Shown: positions 9,232 to 21,245 of the stretch, piece after piece | How the letters are laid out: each line of letters opens with the position of its first letter | Numbering within the stretch: the first letter of the stretch is position 1 | Virus record (IMG/VR): IMGVR_UViG_3300022816_000023 | Coordinates: 1-53,201 of that record | Direction: 5' to 3' (one strand) | Source: a virus | Length of the DNA stretch: 53,201 nucleotides | The notes under the pieces: model-generated | The model's input: only the letters and a program-made list of their open reading frames with translations | Database searches by the model: none | Told to the model about the DNA's origin: nothing | Program-made: the position numbers and the translations under genes

Positions 9232-10257
9232 ATGAATAAATTTAAAAACTATTACGGAATTCAATCTGGAATCTACTACATCCGCTGTGTTGTTACAGAT
9301 ATCCAGTACATCGGCCAATCTAAACGAATGTCATCGAGGGCAACCGCTCATCATAAAGAATTGAGAGAAAATCGACATAGTAATCCTAAGTTACAAAATG
9401 CATGGAATAAATATGGAGCGGATATGTTTGAATTTGGAATCATTGAGACTTGTGATGTTTCCCAGCTTAACGAGCGTGAACAATATTATTTTGACACCCT
9501 GAATAAAGATACGTTGTTCAACATTCACCTTACAGTTGGAGAAGTTCCTAAGTGGAGAAACGCCTCTGTAGATAGACGCCTTTATCTGAAACAGAAATCT
9601 GAGGAAGGTTTGCGTAGGAAAGAAGAATATGCACTACTCTCAGATGAAGAGAAGAAAGCATTAAAATTGCAACGACGCCGAACCTCCAGGAAATGGGATG
9701 GAACCTACCGGAAAACTCAAGAGGGCAGTGCAAATAAAGCCAGAGCAAATCGAGAAAGACTTACTGGGACACATCTTAGTGAAGAAAGAAGGAAACACAT
9801 GGAAGAAGTAACTAAAGAAAGAATGAAACCATGTGAATTTATTCATGATAGTGGAGAGACTATGAAGGAAGATGGTGTAGGTATTGCTGCTAGGAAATAT
9901 AACCTGAAAAGAAAGAAGTTAGGAGAAGTTTTTACAGGAGTACTTCCATCATATAAAGGGTGGAGACTTCTTCCAGGTGAAAGAGAAAGATTATGGATTG
10001 AAAAAGGAATTCAGAAAGAACAGGGATATGGTCCCAAAAGACTATTAGCAATGTCTTCTGCTAGTAAAGAAACACACAGGAAAATAAAAGAAGGAATCAG
10101 CCCGTATGGGCCACTTATCAATCCTTCTGGGGAAGTTGTCCAACCTGAAATGAATCTACTTCAGTTTGCTAGGGAAAACGATTTACACCGTTCTGGGCTG
10201 GGCCATCTTTATTCAGGAAAATATAAGACATATAAAGGATGGAAATTAGCTGAGTAA
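9232..10257 (+). CDS. Free-standing GIY-YIG homing endonuclease
   Basis: 341 residues. The N-terminal domain (about 8-100) is a GIY-YIG nuclease: GIYYIR and QYIGQS form the two-strand signature, followed by a conserved Arg (SSRATAHH), NAWNKYG and a Glu in LNEREQYYF. The rest is modular DNA-binding sequence: a NUMOD3-like patch (LSEERRKHME) and two repeats of an intron-endonuclease-type module, each ending in YKGW (near residues 240 and 335). Such enzymes cut unoccupied alleles and spread their own gene. It sits between the leftward early block and the rightward genes, starts with ATG behind repeat R1 without a strong Shine-Dalgarno, and appears intact. Confidence 0.9.
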   Translation: MNKFKNYYGIQSGIYYIRCVVTDIQYIGQSKRMSSRATAHHKELRENRHSNPKLQNAWNKYGADMFEFGIIETCDVSQLNEREQYYFDTLNKDTLFNIHLTVGEVPKWRNASVDRRLYLKQKSEEGLRRKEEYALLSDEEKKALKLQRRRTSRKWDGTYRKTQEGSANKARANRERLTGTHLSEERRKHMEEVTKERMKPCEFIHDSGETMKEDGVGIAARKYNLKRKKLGEVFTGVLPSYKGWRLLPGERERLWIEKGIQKEQGYGPKRLLAMSSASKETHRKIKEGISPYGPLINPSGEVVQPEMNLLQFARENDLHRSGLGHLYSGKYKTYKGWKLAE

Positions 10258-17683: not shown

Positions 17684-17723
17684 GCTCTAGTTCTTATAGG
17701 TGTATCTATTAACACCTACTACC

Positions 17724-20700
17724 ATGTCTAGTCAAATTGATATTAACAAATTAAGTCCTGAAGAATTAGAATTATTCGCTGATATAAACAAAGACCCTAT
17801 AGCTTTTGGTGAAACATTCTTAATAGTTCCTTCAGATGACCATGAACCAAAGCCTTTTCGTGCTAACTACTCCCAACGTGCTATTATGCGGGCCAAGAAA
17901 AAGACGGTTTATATAGCTTGTCTTAGTAGGGATTCACAGGTTATAGACCCTATCACCTTACGCCCTATTCCAATTTACCAAGCAGAACACGTTAGAAAAA
18001 CTTTATGTTTTGATTTCTATCAAAATAAATTAGTTTGGACTAATTGTACATGGTCTGAATCTGGGCAGAAGAAGTGTATTAAACTGAATCTAGGTAGTGG
18101 TATTGATATTAGCCCTAGTGAAGACCATGAAGTGTATGAACGTAAAAAGGGTTGGATTAGAACTGATACTTTGAAAATAGGTGATAAAATATTAAGTCCT
18201 TCTGTTATTTCTATACAAGGCTCATTGATAAGAAGTGATGTAATACTGAAAGAATGTGTAGAACGTGGTTTAAGAAATGGCACCTTCGATGATGAAGTAT
18301 TCCAGTACACCGATGATTGTTTATCATCATTCTTTTTACACTTGTGGGAATCAGTAGGCCGTTTATTACACAATGAAACTCAGATTTCATTCATGGTTCA
18401 TAGTAGAGACCTTGCTTTAGAACTCCACCACCTATTACTCAGATTAGAAATTACCTGTAGAATTGATGAAGATGGTAATGTTTTCATTGATGAACCTATA
18501 GATTTAAATTTCTTTCTGAATACAATAGGATATGATTGTCCTATTCATGATGCTAAATCCCCTAGACGATGGGAAATTGTTACAGATATAAAACGAATAG
18601 GACTGAGAGATGTATATGATTTATCAGTTGAACATGAAGACCACAACTTTTTAGCCTCAGATATTATAGTTCATAATTGTAGCCGCAGGTCGGGTAAGTC
18701 GATGTGCCTTACAGTACTGGCTTTATGGCACGCAATTACAAAGAATAATAAGAAAATTCTCTTCTTTGCCAACTCCAGTAAACAAGTTGATGCCTGGTTT
18801 GAAGTCTTAGATGGATGGATACGTTCGTCGGAGTTTGTTAAATCTTTTCAGGACCCTAAAGGAATCAATAGGTCATCTCCACAGCGTAGGTCATTTATAA
18901 CTAACTCTTATATAGCTGGGTATATCTTAACAGACCAAGAATCCTGCCGTGGCTTAACTTCAGATGTTTGTCTCCCCTATAAAGAAAGGGTATTAACAGA
19001 TATTGGCTATCTTCCTATTGGAGATATTGTAGAAAAAGGGCTAGGGGAAAAAGTACTATCCTATAATCCAAAAACAGAGCAATTGGAATGGAAGAAAATA
19101 TTAAAGAGAATAACTAACCCATTATTAGATAGACAGTACAATATTCTGGAAACTCCTTTTGGGGAATTGTGCTGTACAGAAGACCATCCTATTTTTACAG
19201 AAAGAGGTTATATCCAAGCTAATGAATTATTAAAAGGCGACATTATATATTATGATAACACCAGAAACGACTTTAACTGCTCAGGAAAGACAAGTTCTAT
19301 TAGGAACAATGTTGGGAGACGGATATTGTGCATTACCCACGAAAGGGAGCAGGAATGCACGATTGACAATGAGACATGGACCGAAGCAAAAGGATTACTT
19401 AGACTGGAAGTACAATCAGTTAAGCAGATGGTTCCACAATCCACCACACTCAGAGGTGAATCAAGGTTACGGAGAAATCTCCCATATTGCGGTGAGTATG
19501 TGTCATCCAGTATTCACAGAAATAACAAACCTGTATTACCAAAACAAGAAGAAAATAATTACAAGAGAAATATTAGACCAATTAGGTCCTTTAGGAATAG
19601 CAGTATGGTTCATGGACGATGGTTCCCGTTCCAAATACACTTTTCAACTACATACAGAGGGATTTTCAGAACAGGAGAGTATCTTAATAGCAGAATATTT
19701 AACGAAAAAACTAAATGGCCCAGTTATAGTGAGACAATACAAAACGTACCACAGAATAGAAATTCAAATGGAAGCCAGGACTCATTTAATAGAAATGATA
19801 AAGGAATTTCTACCAGAATCTATGATGTACAAGATAGATATTCCATTTCTGAAGACAATAAGAAAATGTCGATATTGCCAGAAAGAATTTTACCCTCTTC
19901 GCAATGTTCAAGAAAAGACAGGACATTTCTTTTGTCAGGAATGTGCTACAATAAGATACAGGGAATACAAGAAAGACCCGGAAAATCGAATCAAGTGGAA
20001 TACAAGAAGAAAAGAATTGGCAAAACTGAAGAAGTTGTCTACGACCTCACAATAGAAGATAATCACAACTTCTTTGCAGAAGGAATTCTTATTTCAAACT
20101 GTTTTGTGGACGAGGCACAGAGCCTTTCTGATGATGACTGGAGTGTATTGAAGCCTATTATGGTAGGGGATATGTATCGTTCAGCACATATTAGAAACTA
20201 TTTGGCTGGTACAATCAAGGAACCCACTGGGCAATTCTATCATAGAGTTAAGAAACAGGGGGGTGACGAAGTTACTAATTTAATCTTTATACCTGTAACT
20301 AAGAATAAAGATTACACTGAAGAAATGATACGGGCAATTAGATTGGAAGTTTCAGAAGCTGAATTCCAGACTGAATTTTTACTGGAAGTGGGAACTAGTG
20401 AAGACTCTGTATTTAATTCTAAAGATATCCAAAGAGCAGCTACTGATGATATGTATTATGGGAAACAGAATATTAAAGAATCATCTAACTTCTTCAGATT
20501 CATGGGGGTTGACTGGGATAAGGTACAAGCTGGAACAAATATTGCTGTTGTACAATATAATAAAATCACCCAAGATATGCAAGTGATTTATAGAGAGGAA
20601 GTTGAGAAAGGTAAATTTAGTTATACAGCAGCAGTCGCTAAAGTTATAGAATTGTATATGCACTTCGCCCCTGATATTGTCACAGCTGACCAAGGCCAAG

Positions 20701-21245
20701 GAGAAAAGCAGTGGGAGGACCTAGTTCTAGAATCTGAAAGAAGGGGATTGGATTTACATAACCGATTGATTAAATTACCTTTTCAGAGTAAAGTTGAAGT
20801 TCCTAATATGCTTACAGGGGAAATTGAAAGGAAACTCATAAAGCCATTACTAGTTGGTATCTTACAATCTAAACTCCAAGAATCTAGATTAAAGTTCCCA
20901 GCTGAAGATGATGTTTTAAAGAATCAATTATTAGGGTATAAGATTAAAAAGACAACTGAAAATACTATTAAGTATTCCAGTTCTAATGAACATATTATAG
21001 ATTGTTTATCATTCTGTGCTTATGGAATATGGTTATGTTTCGAGAATATAATGGGGCAACGATATTTAGAAAGAAATGCTGATTTCCAAGTTATTGAAAA
21101 TGAAACTAATAAATTCACTGATGAAAGACTCTTAGAGAATTTCTGGAGTCAATTAGAAGGGGAAAGGTCTCTTGGAGAAGGAGTAGATGTCTTCAGGTCT
21201 TCATTTTCAATGAATGGTCCAGGACCTATGAGGAGTAGCTGGTGA
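17724..21245 (+). CDS. terL: Terminase large subunit interrupted by two inteins
   Basis: The DNA-packaging motor. The start is set at ATG 17724; a GTG at 17700 would add eight residues. The precursor has 1173 residues, and removal of inteins of 253 and 377 residues leaves about 543, normal for TerL. The ATPase has Walker A (CSRRSGKSM, from residue 319) and Walker B with its glutamate (CFVDEAQ, from 793). The C-terminal RNase H-like nuclease has Asp in GVDWDK (930), TADQGQ (989) and IIDCLS (1093). One intein sits directly before each Walker motif, so splicing is required for activity. The stop overlaps the next start (GTGA). A diverged paralogue of the ATPase part lies at 40990-41415. Confidence 0.95.
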   Translation: MSSQIDINKLSPEELELFADINKDPIAFGETFLIVPSDDHEPKPFRANYSQRAIMRAKKKTVYIACLSRDSQVIDPITLRPIPIYQAEHVRKTLCFDFYQNKLVWTNCTWSESGQKKCIKLNLGSGIDISPSEDHEVYERKKGWIRTDTLKIGDKILSPSVISIQGSLIRSDVILKECVERGLRNGTFDDEVFQYTDDCLSSFFLHLWESVGRLLHNETQISFMVHSRDLALELHHLLLRLEITCRIDEDGNVFIDEPIDLNFFLNTIGYDCPIHDAKSPRRWEIVTDIKRIGLRDVYDLSVEHEDHNFLASDIIVHNCSRRSGKSMCLTVLALWHAITKNNKKILFFANSSKQVDAWFEVLDGWIRSSEFVKSFQDPKGINRSSPQRRSFITNSYIAGYILTDQESCRGLTSDVCLPYKERVLTDIGYLPIGDIVEKGLGEKVLSYNPKTEQLEWKKILKRITNPLLDRQYNILETPFGELCCTEDHPIFTERGYIQANELLKGDIIYYDNTRNDFNCSGKTSSIRNNVGRRILCITHEREQECTIDNETWTEAKGLLRLEVQSVKQMVPQSTTLRGESRLRRNLPYCGEYVSSSIHRNNKPVLPKQEENNYKRNIRPIRSFRNSSMVHGRWFPFQIHFSTTYRGIFRTGEYLNSRIFNEKTKWPSYSETIQNVPQNRNSNGSQDSFNRNDKGISTRIYDVQDRYSISEDNKKMSILPERILPSSQCSRKDRTFLLSGMCYNKIQGIQERPGKSNQVEYKKKRIGKTEEVVYDLTIEDNHNFFAEGILISNCFVDEAQSLSDDDWSVLKPIMVGDMYRSAHIRNYLAGTIKEPTGQFYHRVKKQGGDEVTNLIFIPVTKNKDYTEEMIRAIRLEVSEAEFQTEFLLEVGTSEDSVFNSKDIQRAATDDMYYGKQNIKESSNFFRFMGVDWDKVQAGTNIAVVQYNKITQDMQVIYREEVEKGKFSYTAAVAKVIELYMHFAPDIVTADQGQGEKQWEDLVLESERRGLDLHNRLIKLPFQSKVEVPNMLTGEIERKLIKPLLVGILQSKLQESRLKFPAEDDVLKNQLLGYKIKKTTENTIKYSSSNEHIIDCLSFCAYGIWLCFENIMGQRYLERNADFQVIENETNKFTDERLLENFWSQLEGERSLGEGVDVFRSSFSMNGPGPMRSSW
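17919..18677 (+). mobile_element. Intein 1 in TerL, before Walker A, with degenerate endonuclease
   Basis: 253 residues from Cys1 (CLSRDSQVIDP) to a terminal His-Asn (IIVHN), followed by Cys+1 of the extein. Block B is present with His (SPSEDHEVYE) and block F reads VYDLSVEHEDHNF. The middle of about 120 residues retains the style of a DOD-type LAGLIDADG endonuclease (SRDLALELHHLLLRLEI), but the acidic LAGLIDADG motif is replaced (FLHLWESVGRL) and a first motif is missing. It should splice but no longer home by itself. Joining the flanks restores YIACSRRSGKS. Confidence 0.9.
18969..20099 (+). mobile_element. Intein 2 in TerL, before Walker B, hosting an out-of-frame endonuclease
   Basis: 377 residues from Cys1 (CLPYKERVLTDIGYLPIGD) to Ser-Asn, then Cys+1 of CFVDEAQ. 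Block B is CTEDHPIFT; block F is VYDLTIEDNHNFF. The residue before Asn is Ser rather than the usual His. Splicing sequence occupies only the first 94 residues and about the last 25. The roughly 250 residues between have no recognisable domain in this frame (polar, rich in Asn, Ser, Arg, Lys), because that DNA encodes a LAGLIDADG endonuclease in the next frame. The intein frame nevertheless has no stop codon there, so the terminase precursor stays intact. Confidence 0.9.
19252..20055 (+). CDS. LAGLIDADG homing endonuclease encoded out of frame inside intein 2
   Basis: 267 residues in the +1 frame relative to TerL, wholly inside intein 2. The product has both catalytic helices of a LAGLIDADG_2-type enzyme: LLGTMLGDGY (16-25) and LGIAVWFMDDGS (114-125), with the usual spacing and the conserved T-x-x-F-S-x-x-E (135-141). 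A C-terminal zinc finger follows (C206, C209, C228, C231) with a basic tail. Both acidic residues are kept, so it looks active. The ATG at 19252 has only a distant AAAAGG (14 bases). It could be made by internal initiation on the terminase mRNA. It would cut intein-less terL and so spread intein and gene together. Confidence 0.88.
   Translation: MITPETTLTAQERQVLLGTMLGDGYCALPTKGSRNARLTMRHGPKQKDYLDWKYNQLSRWFHNPPHSEVNQGYGEISHIAVSMCHPVFTEITNLYYQNKKKIITREILDQLGPLGIAVWFMDDGSRSKYTFQLHTEGFSEQESILIAEYLTKKLNGPVIVRQYKTYHRIEIQMEARTHLIEMIKEFLPESMMYKIDIPFLKTIRKCRYCQKEFYPLRNVQEKTGHFFCQECATIRYREYKKDPENRIKWNTRRKELAKLKKLSTTSQ

Follow-up and report, generated by a model that had tools for sequence, protein, structure and literature searches.

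Out-of-frame LAGLIDADG endonuclease gene nested in a viral terminase intein, with related arrangements at other loci

Two inteins and a nested gene in the terminase locus

We analyzed a virus record of 53,201 bases, referred to as the window; the features of the terminase locus lie on its plus strand. The large terminase (TerL) gene occupies an open frame of 1181 codons (17700..21245, with an alternative ATG start at 17724), which matches Terminase_6N as well as PHROG terminase and contains two inteins. Intein 1 (17919..18677, 253 aa) was delimited from the sequence and lies in the Walker A motif (VYIA/C...HN/CSRRSGKS, slashes marking the junctions). It shows only a weak in-frame LAGLIDADG_3 trace (PF14528, E 0.004, failing its cut-off), possibly a degenerate canonical endonuclease. 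Elsewhere in the window, a separate gene with a GIY-YIG domain (9232-10257) represents a possible further homing endonuclease.

Intein 2 (18969..20099, 377 aa), delimited by PF14890, a structure model and alignment, is located in the Walker B motif (SDV/C...SN/CFVDEAQ) and hosts the nested gene. Taken alone it matches PF14890 with an E of 8e-13, and it carries the residues expected of an intein, namely C1, TEDH in block B, N377 and the +1 Cys, while the penultimate residue is Ser instead of the usual His. For the AlphaFold model of the intein frame, rows from phage records and FoX3 were left out of the underlying alignment. Residues 1-100 and 353-377 were modelled confidently and the middle was disordered: the N-terminal splicing half of ~100 aa with Cys1 and TxDH (18969..19268) reached a pLDDT of ~72-94 per 10-residue block and the C-terminal half with blocks F/G (VYDLTIEDNHNFFAEGILISN; 20025..20099) ~90 in the last two blocks, compared to ~30-40 over most of residues 100-352 for the stop-free spacer lying over the endonuclease (19269..20024). 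A Foldseek search with this model returned solved mini-inteins as the best matches (best E 8e-7), as expected for a HINT fold. The model thus shows intein 2 as two halves of a HINT fold separated by a disordered loop of ~250 residues, and the motifs, the structure model and the exact empty allele found for FoX3 (see below) point to protein splicing.

The initial annotation had placed a complete and separate endonuclease in another frame inside intein 2, and our analysis agrees. The ORF 19252..20055 (ATG start, 267 aa) sits entirely within the stop-free TerL frame, shifted by one base (+1 relative to TerL), and its stop codon TAG (20053-20055) spans the ATA GAA codons of the intein C-terminal half. 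It matches PF03161 with an E of 6e-36, and both LAGLIDADG motifs (GTMLGDG and WFMDDGS) are intact with conserved catalytic acids. A profile search with the endonuclease family led to I-SceI structures (E 1e-29), and the fold model (pLDDT 87.5) matched I-SceI and I-WcaI (TM 0.65/0.77, E 1e-15 to 1e-16). By profile, motifs and modelled fold, the nested gene is an I-SceI-type LAGLIDADG homing endonuclease. The zinc finger that had been suggested at its C-terminus is recognizable in two CxxC pairs (C206/C209 and C228/C231; 19867..19944), of which Cys 206, 209 and 231 are near-invariant across the nested family; we call this tail zinc-finger-like, as the matches to zinc-finger Pfam families are weak and below the cut-off. 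The proposal that one DNA segment serves both as intein linker and as endonuclease gene is likewise supported.

In canonical bifunctional LAGLIDADG inteins such as PI-SceI, PI-PfuI and, among the sequences considered here, the KLEP7 RNA ligase intein, enzyme and intein usually form a single polypeptide read in one frame. Intein 2 resembles these inteins in that HINT halves flank the enzyme, the insertion lies in a conserved catalytic motif and the same homing cycle is expected. However, the endonuclease is shifted by one base from the intein frame; it has its own start and stop, and a disordered spacer is left in the intein. With the PF03161 intron-encoded endonucleases of the I-SceI type the nested enzyme shares the single-chain double-LAGLIDADG fold and the profile, but those enzymes sit in an intron or free-standing context, and we know of none with a zinc-finger tail or with dual coding with an intein.

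Recurrence of the nested arrangement

The initial annotation knew of no described example of this layout. The layout is not singular, since we found 15 further distinct loci as well as a close precedent lacking an intein. Loci were collected by scanning IMG/VR with DNA patterns and, guided by profiles, IMG/VR together with GTDB genomes, and were then tested for a second open frame. The scans yielded a further 12 distinct nested LAGLIDADG loci, 11 on virus contigs and one on a Nostoc contig, all in a single register. Reading of the sequences assigned their host genes to SF1-like helicases (L083, L122, L132, L148, L167 and L209), SF2-like helicases (L266, L267/L268, L269 and L272) and TerL-like proteins (L162 and L307). 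The element L209 lies on a genome contig of Nostoc sp. JL33, in a UvrD-like helicase gene. In L132, the same helicase frame contains, 3' of the nested intein, an apparent second intein-like N-terminal segment (CSPPDELILTKRGQVPIAEL). Of the 75 loci in one complete AVWFMDDG scan, 6 were nested. Several high-GC candidates with off-frame runs of 100-166 codons (L063, L091, L143, L177, L178 and others) were rejected as partial chance overlaps.

Three phage genomes are nested as well. In FoX3, which has a Xanthomonas host and was found by tblastn, a LAGLIDADG gene lies out of frame within a helicase intein, in the other register. According to Pfam, the TerL inteins of Gordonia phage Clown (L182, 2400-3527) and Synechococcus phage S-EIVl (L345, 2488-3483) each contain an out-of-frame HNH gene with zinc-finger motifs. 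The search of TerL inteins for nested frames, which had been suggested as a check, was thus positive for the TerL-like L162 and L307 with LAGLIDADG and for Clown and S-EIVl with HNH genes. The HNH genes of Clown, S-EIVl and the ShiLan-type phage Mantra are all related (~35% identity between Clown and Mantra over part of the length). Annotated nested examples are labelled only as terminase or helicase, the Clown and S-EIVl loci as terminase.

In the LAGLIDADG cases with known junctions the insertion lies right behind the ‘DE’ of Walker B, the window being the sole exception. Compared to its sister phage FoX1, FoX3 differs by exactly a 942-nt intein at DE/CHH, which FoX1 lacks, and the remaining 1425 nt show 28 mismatches. 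From this exact difference we infer that the FoX3 element acts as a discrete insertion. Searches of IMG/VR with exact peptide patterns revealed no close relatives of either TerL or the endonuclease of the window, an empty TerL allele for the window was not found, and the search with the FoX3 endonuclease returned only FoX3 itself; for this reason homing at the window is proposed by analogy with FoX3.

The closest described arrangement is that of ShiLan and Pacc40, in which HNH genes are inserted out of frame in phage methylases and no splicing domain was found (Arsenault, Gosselin, Gogarten 2025, PMC11855218). These cases share with ours a homing endonuclease in an alternative frame and a host gene frame that stays open, but in our loci the shifted gene lies within a recognizable intein splicing domain and mostly belongs to the LAGLIDADG family. 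We also considered the SPbeta nrdE intein as a possible precedent; going by its annotation, the record places the intein within one bnrdE reading frame. We found no description of an intein with an out-of-frame endonuclease in the literature searched, Gosselin et al. 2025 and Gorbalenya 1998 lying outside it, and priority for this layout is uncertain.

Openness of the intein frame, selection and register

Next, we considered the intein frame over the endonuclease, in which 0 stops were observed. When the protein was kept fixed and its codons were resampled from the phage's own genes, a mean of 25.5 stops with a minimum of 13 was obtained in 10,000 trials; permuting the gene's own synonymous codons gave a mean of 13.0 and a minimum of 4. 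The ~17 chance stops estimated in the initial annotation are in the right range, and its claim that selection keeps the frame open is supported. The third frame of the region contains 33 stops, and the off-frames of ordinary genes in the window show 4.6-16.7 stops per 100 codons and never stay open for more than 85 codons. We tested 17 sequences (the window plus 16 further ones, corresponding to 16 distinct loci as L267 and L268 are near-identical), and each had 0 stops compared to 5-41 expected. Stop-free resamples with host codon usage occurred only for the GC-rich L132 (12/4000) and for FoX3 (1/4000).

The comparison of synonymous and non-synonymous change in both frames, likewise suggested beforehand, was possible for four related pairs. 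The enzyme frame showed a pN/pS of 0.26-0.45 and the host protein 0.29-0.57, compared to 1.03-1.64 for the intein frame overlapping the enzyme on the same DNA, ratios that are rough because synonymous sites are close to saturated in some pairs. Identity in these pairs was 54-70% for the enzyme and 31-38% for the intein frame. Change by enzyme codon position was highest at the third, lower at the first and lowest at the second position, in agreement with the pN/pS values. Taken together, these data show that the enzyme frame is under purifying selection, while the intein-frame spacer drifts and is mainly kept open. In many members, though not in all, the spacer leans hydrophilic (z to -3.0).

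The registers differ in how easily stops can be avoided. In the common register, used in 14 of the 15 cases listed, an intein codon consists of the third base of an enzyme codon and the first two bases of the next one, so that a stop requires NNT followed by AA, AG or GA. As we checked for all 16 cases, replacing NNT by NNC is always synonymous, and the overlapping stops can therefore be removed in every case without cost to the enzyme. In the other register, a TGA that is not synonymously removable arises wherever Met precedes Ile, Met, Thr, Asn or Lys, and 1-5 such pairs occur in most of the nested enzymes. At the critical positions T was absent in every +2 locus (compared to 0.08-0.41 elsewhere), with C, G or A instead. 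Cost-free stop removal can explain both the recurrence of this register and the persistence of the element in A+T-rich genomes; as the reason for the register preference it is suggestive rather than proven, since the cases represent few independent lineages.

A proposed mobile element with two reading frames

We consider it highly probable that the locus represents a mobile splicing element whose splicing and homing functions are uncoupled, each in a reading frame of its own. In the first frame, the ribosome would translate TerL straight across intein 2; the N half of ~100 residues and the C half of ~25 residues would pair as a HINT splicing domain with the disordered spacer of ~250 residues looped out, and excision would reconstitute the Walker B motif of TerL. 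In the second frame, translation would begin at a separate start codon close to where the N half ends and yield a free LAGLIDADG enzyme that resembles I-SceI and carries a zinc-finger-like tail. This enzyme would cleave alleles lacking the intein at the insertion site, and repair would copy the entire segment. Selection keeps the enzyme sequence, as shown for the related pairs, and keeps the spacer mainly stop-free and slightly hydrophilic. Production of the free endonuclease and cleavage of the empty allele are predictions of this model.

How the enzyme is translated can be judged from the surroundings of its start. Where their 5' end is intact, the common-register LAGLIDADG genes start 14-20 residues ahead of motif 1, and most of these genes have an in-frame stop shortly 5' of the start. 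Convincing ribosome-binding sites were observed in L307, L272 and L269 only, and that of the window is weak and badly spaced. The conserved codons for the intein ‘GD’ (GGNGAY), found just 5' of the nested start in the window (19232-19252) as well as in L272, L269 and L267, may also act as a ribosome-binding site in the second nested clade. Internal initiation is our preferred, though unproven, route. Alternatively, programmed +1 frameshifting might produce the enzyme as a fusion to the intein N half, which would fit the +1 difference between the frames and the weak ribosome-binding sites of several members. However, the upstream stop closes the enzyme frame in most members and leaves a narrow window for a shift (18 nt in the window sequence), and the start codon is found at the same place across members; we regard frameshifting as unlikely.

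Considerably less probable still is that the nested frame is a relic, i.e. a formerly fused enzyme that has slipped out of frame and whose production has ceased. The phylogenies bear on this question. In the FastTree phylogeny, free-standing or intron-borne relatives share one clade with the window, FoX3, L307 and the SF2 group, whereas in the IQ-TREE phylogeny the window joins only nested genes, those of the SF1/L162 clade (support 100), and fused in-frame enzymes adjoin the SF2 group, a second nested clade. Although this latter neighbourhood is what a relic would predict, the enzyme frame is under purifying selection between relatives, the catalytic acids and start codons are intact and the fold model is undamaged. 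An in-frame fusion disguised by two compensating indels, conceivable for a metagenomic record such as the window, is the least credible explanation, as 15 other distinct loci show the layout too, among them the GenBank genomes of FoX3, Clown and S-EIVl, a recurrence that excludes a one-off sequencing frameshift, and as codon choice avoiding stops along the whole enzyme is not a product of error. With regard to the origin of the uncoupled element, the nested layout probably arose several times; invasion of a mini-intein by a free-standing gene is an unproven origin, and the two trees disagree on the sister groups.

More broadly, the cases may represent a widespread, so far undescribed architecture of mobile inteins with more than one origin, comprising LAGLIDADG and HNH enzymes and favoured in the register in which stops can be removed synonymously, a generalization for which we see about as much reason to accept as to doubt. 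The cases show that the homing enzyme of an intein can be encoded by an overlapping gene of its own, which standard annotation overlooks. They also provide a large natural case of dual coding on the same strand with the constraint clearly divided between the frames, and a simple, testable rule, based on the genetic code, for the registers open to such overlaps. Splicing domains apparently tolerate stop-free spacers of several hundred residues, and the family offers a source of putative I-SceI-type nucleases with predicted target sites.
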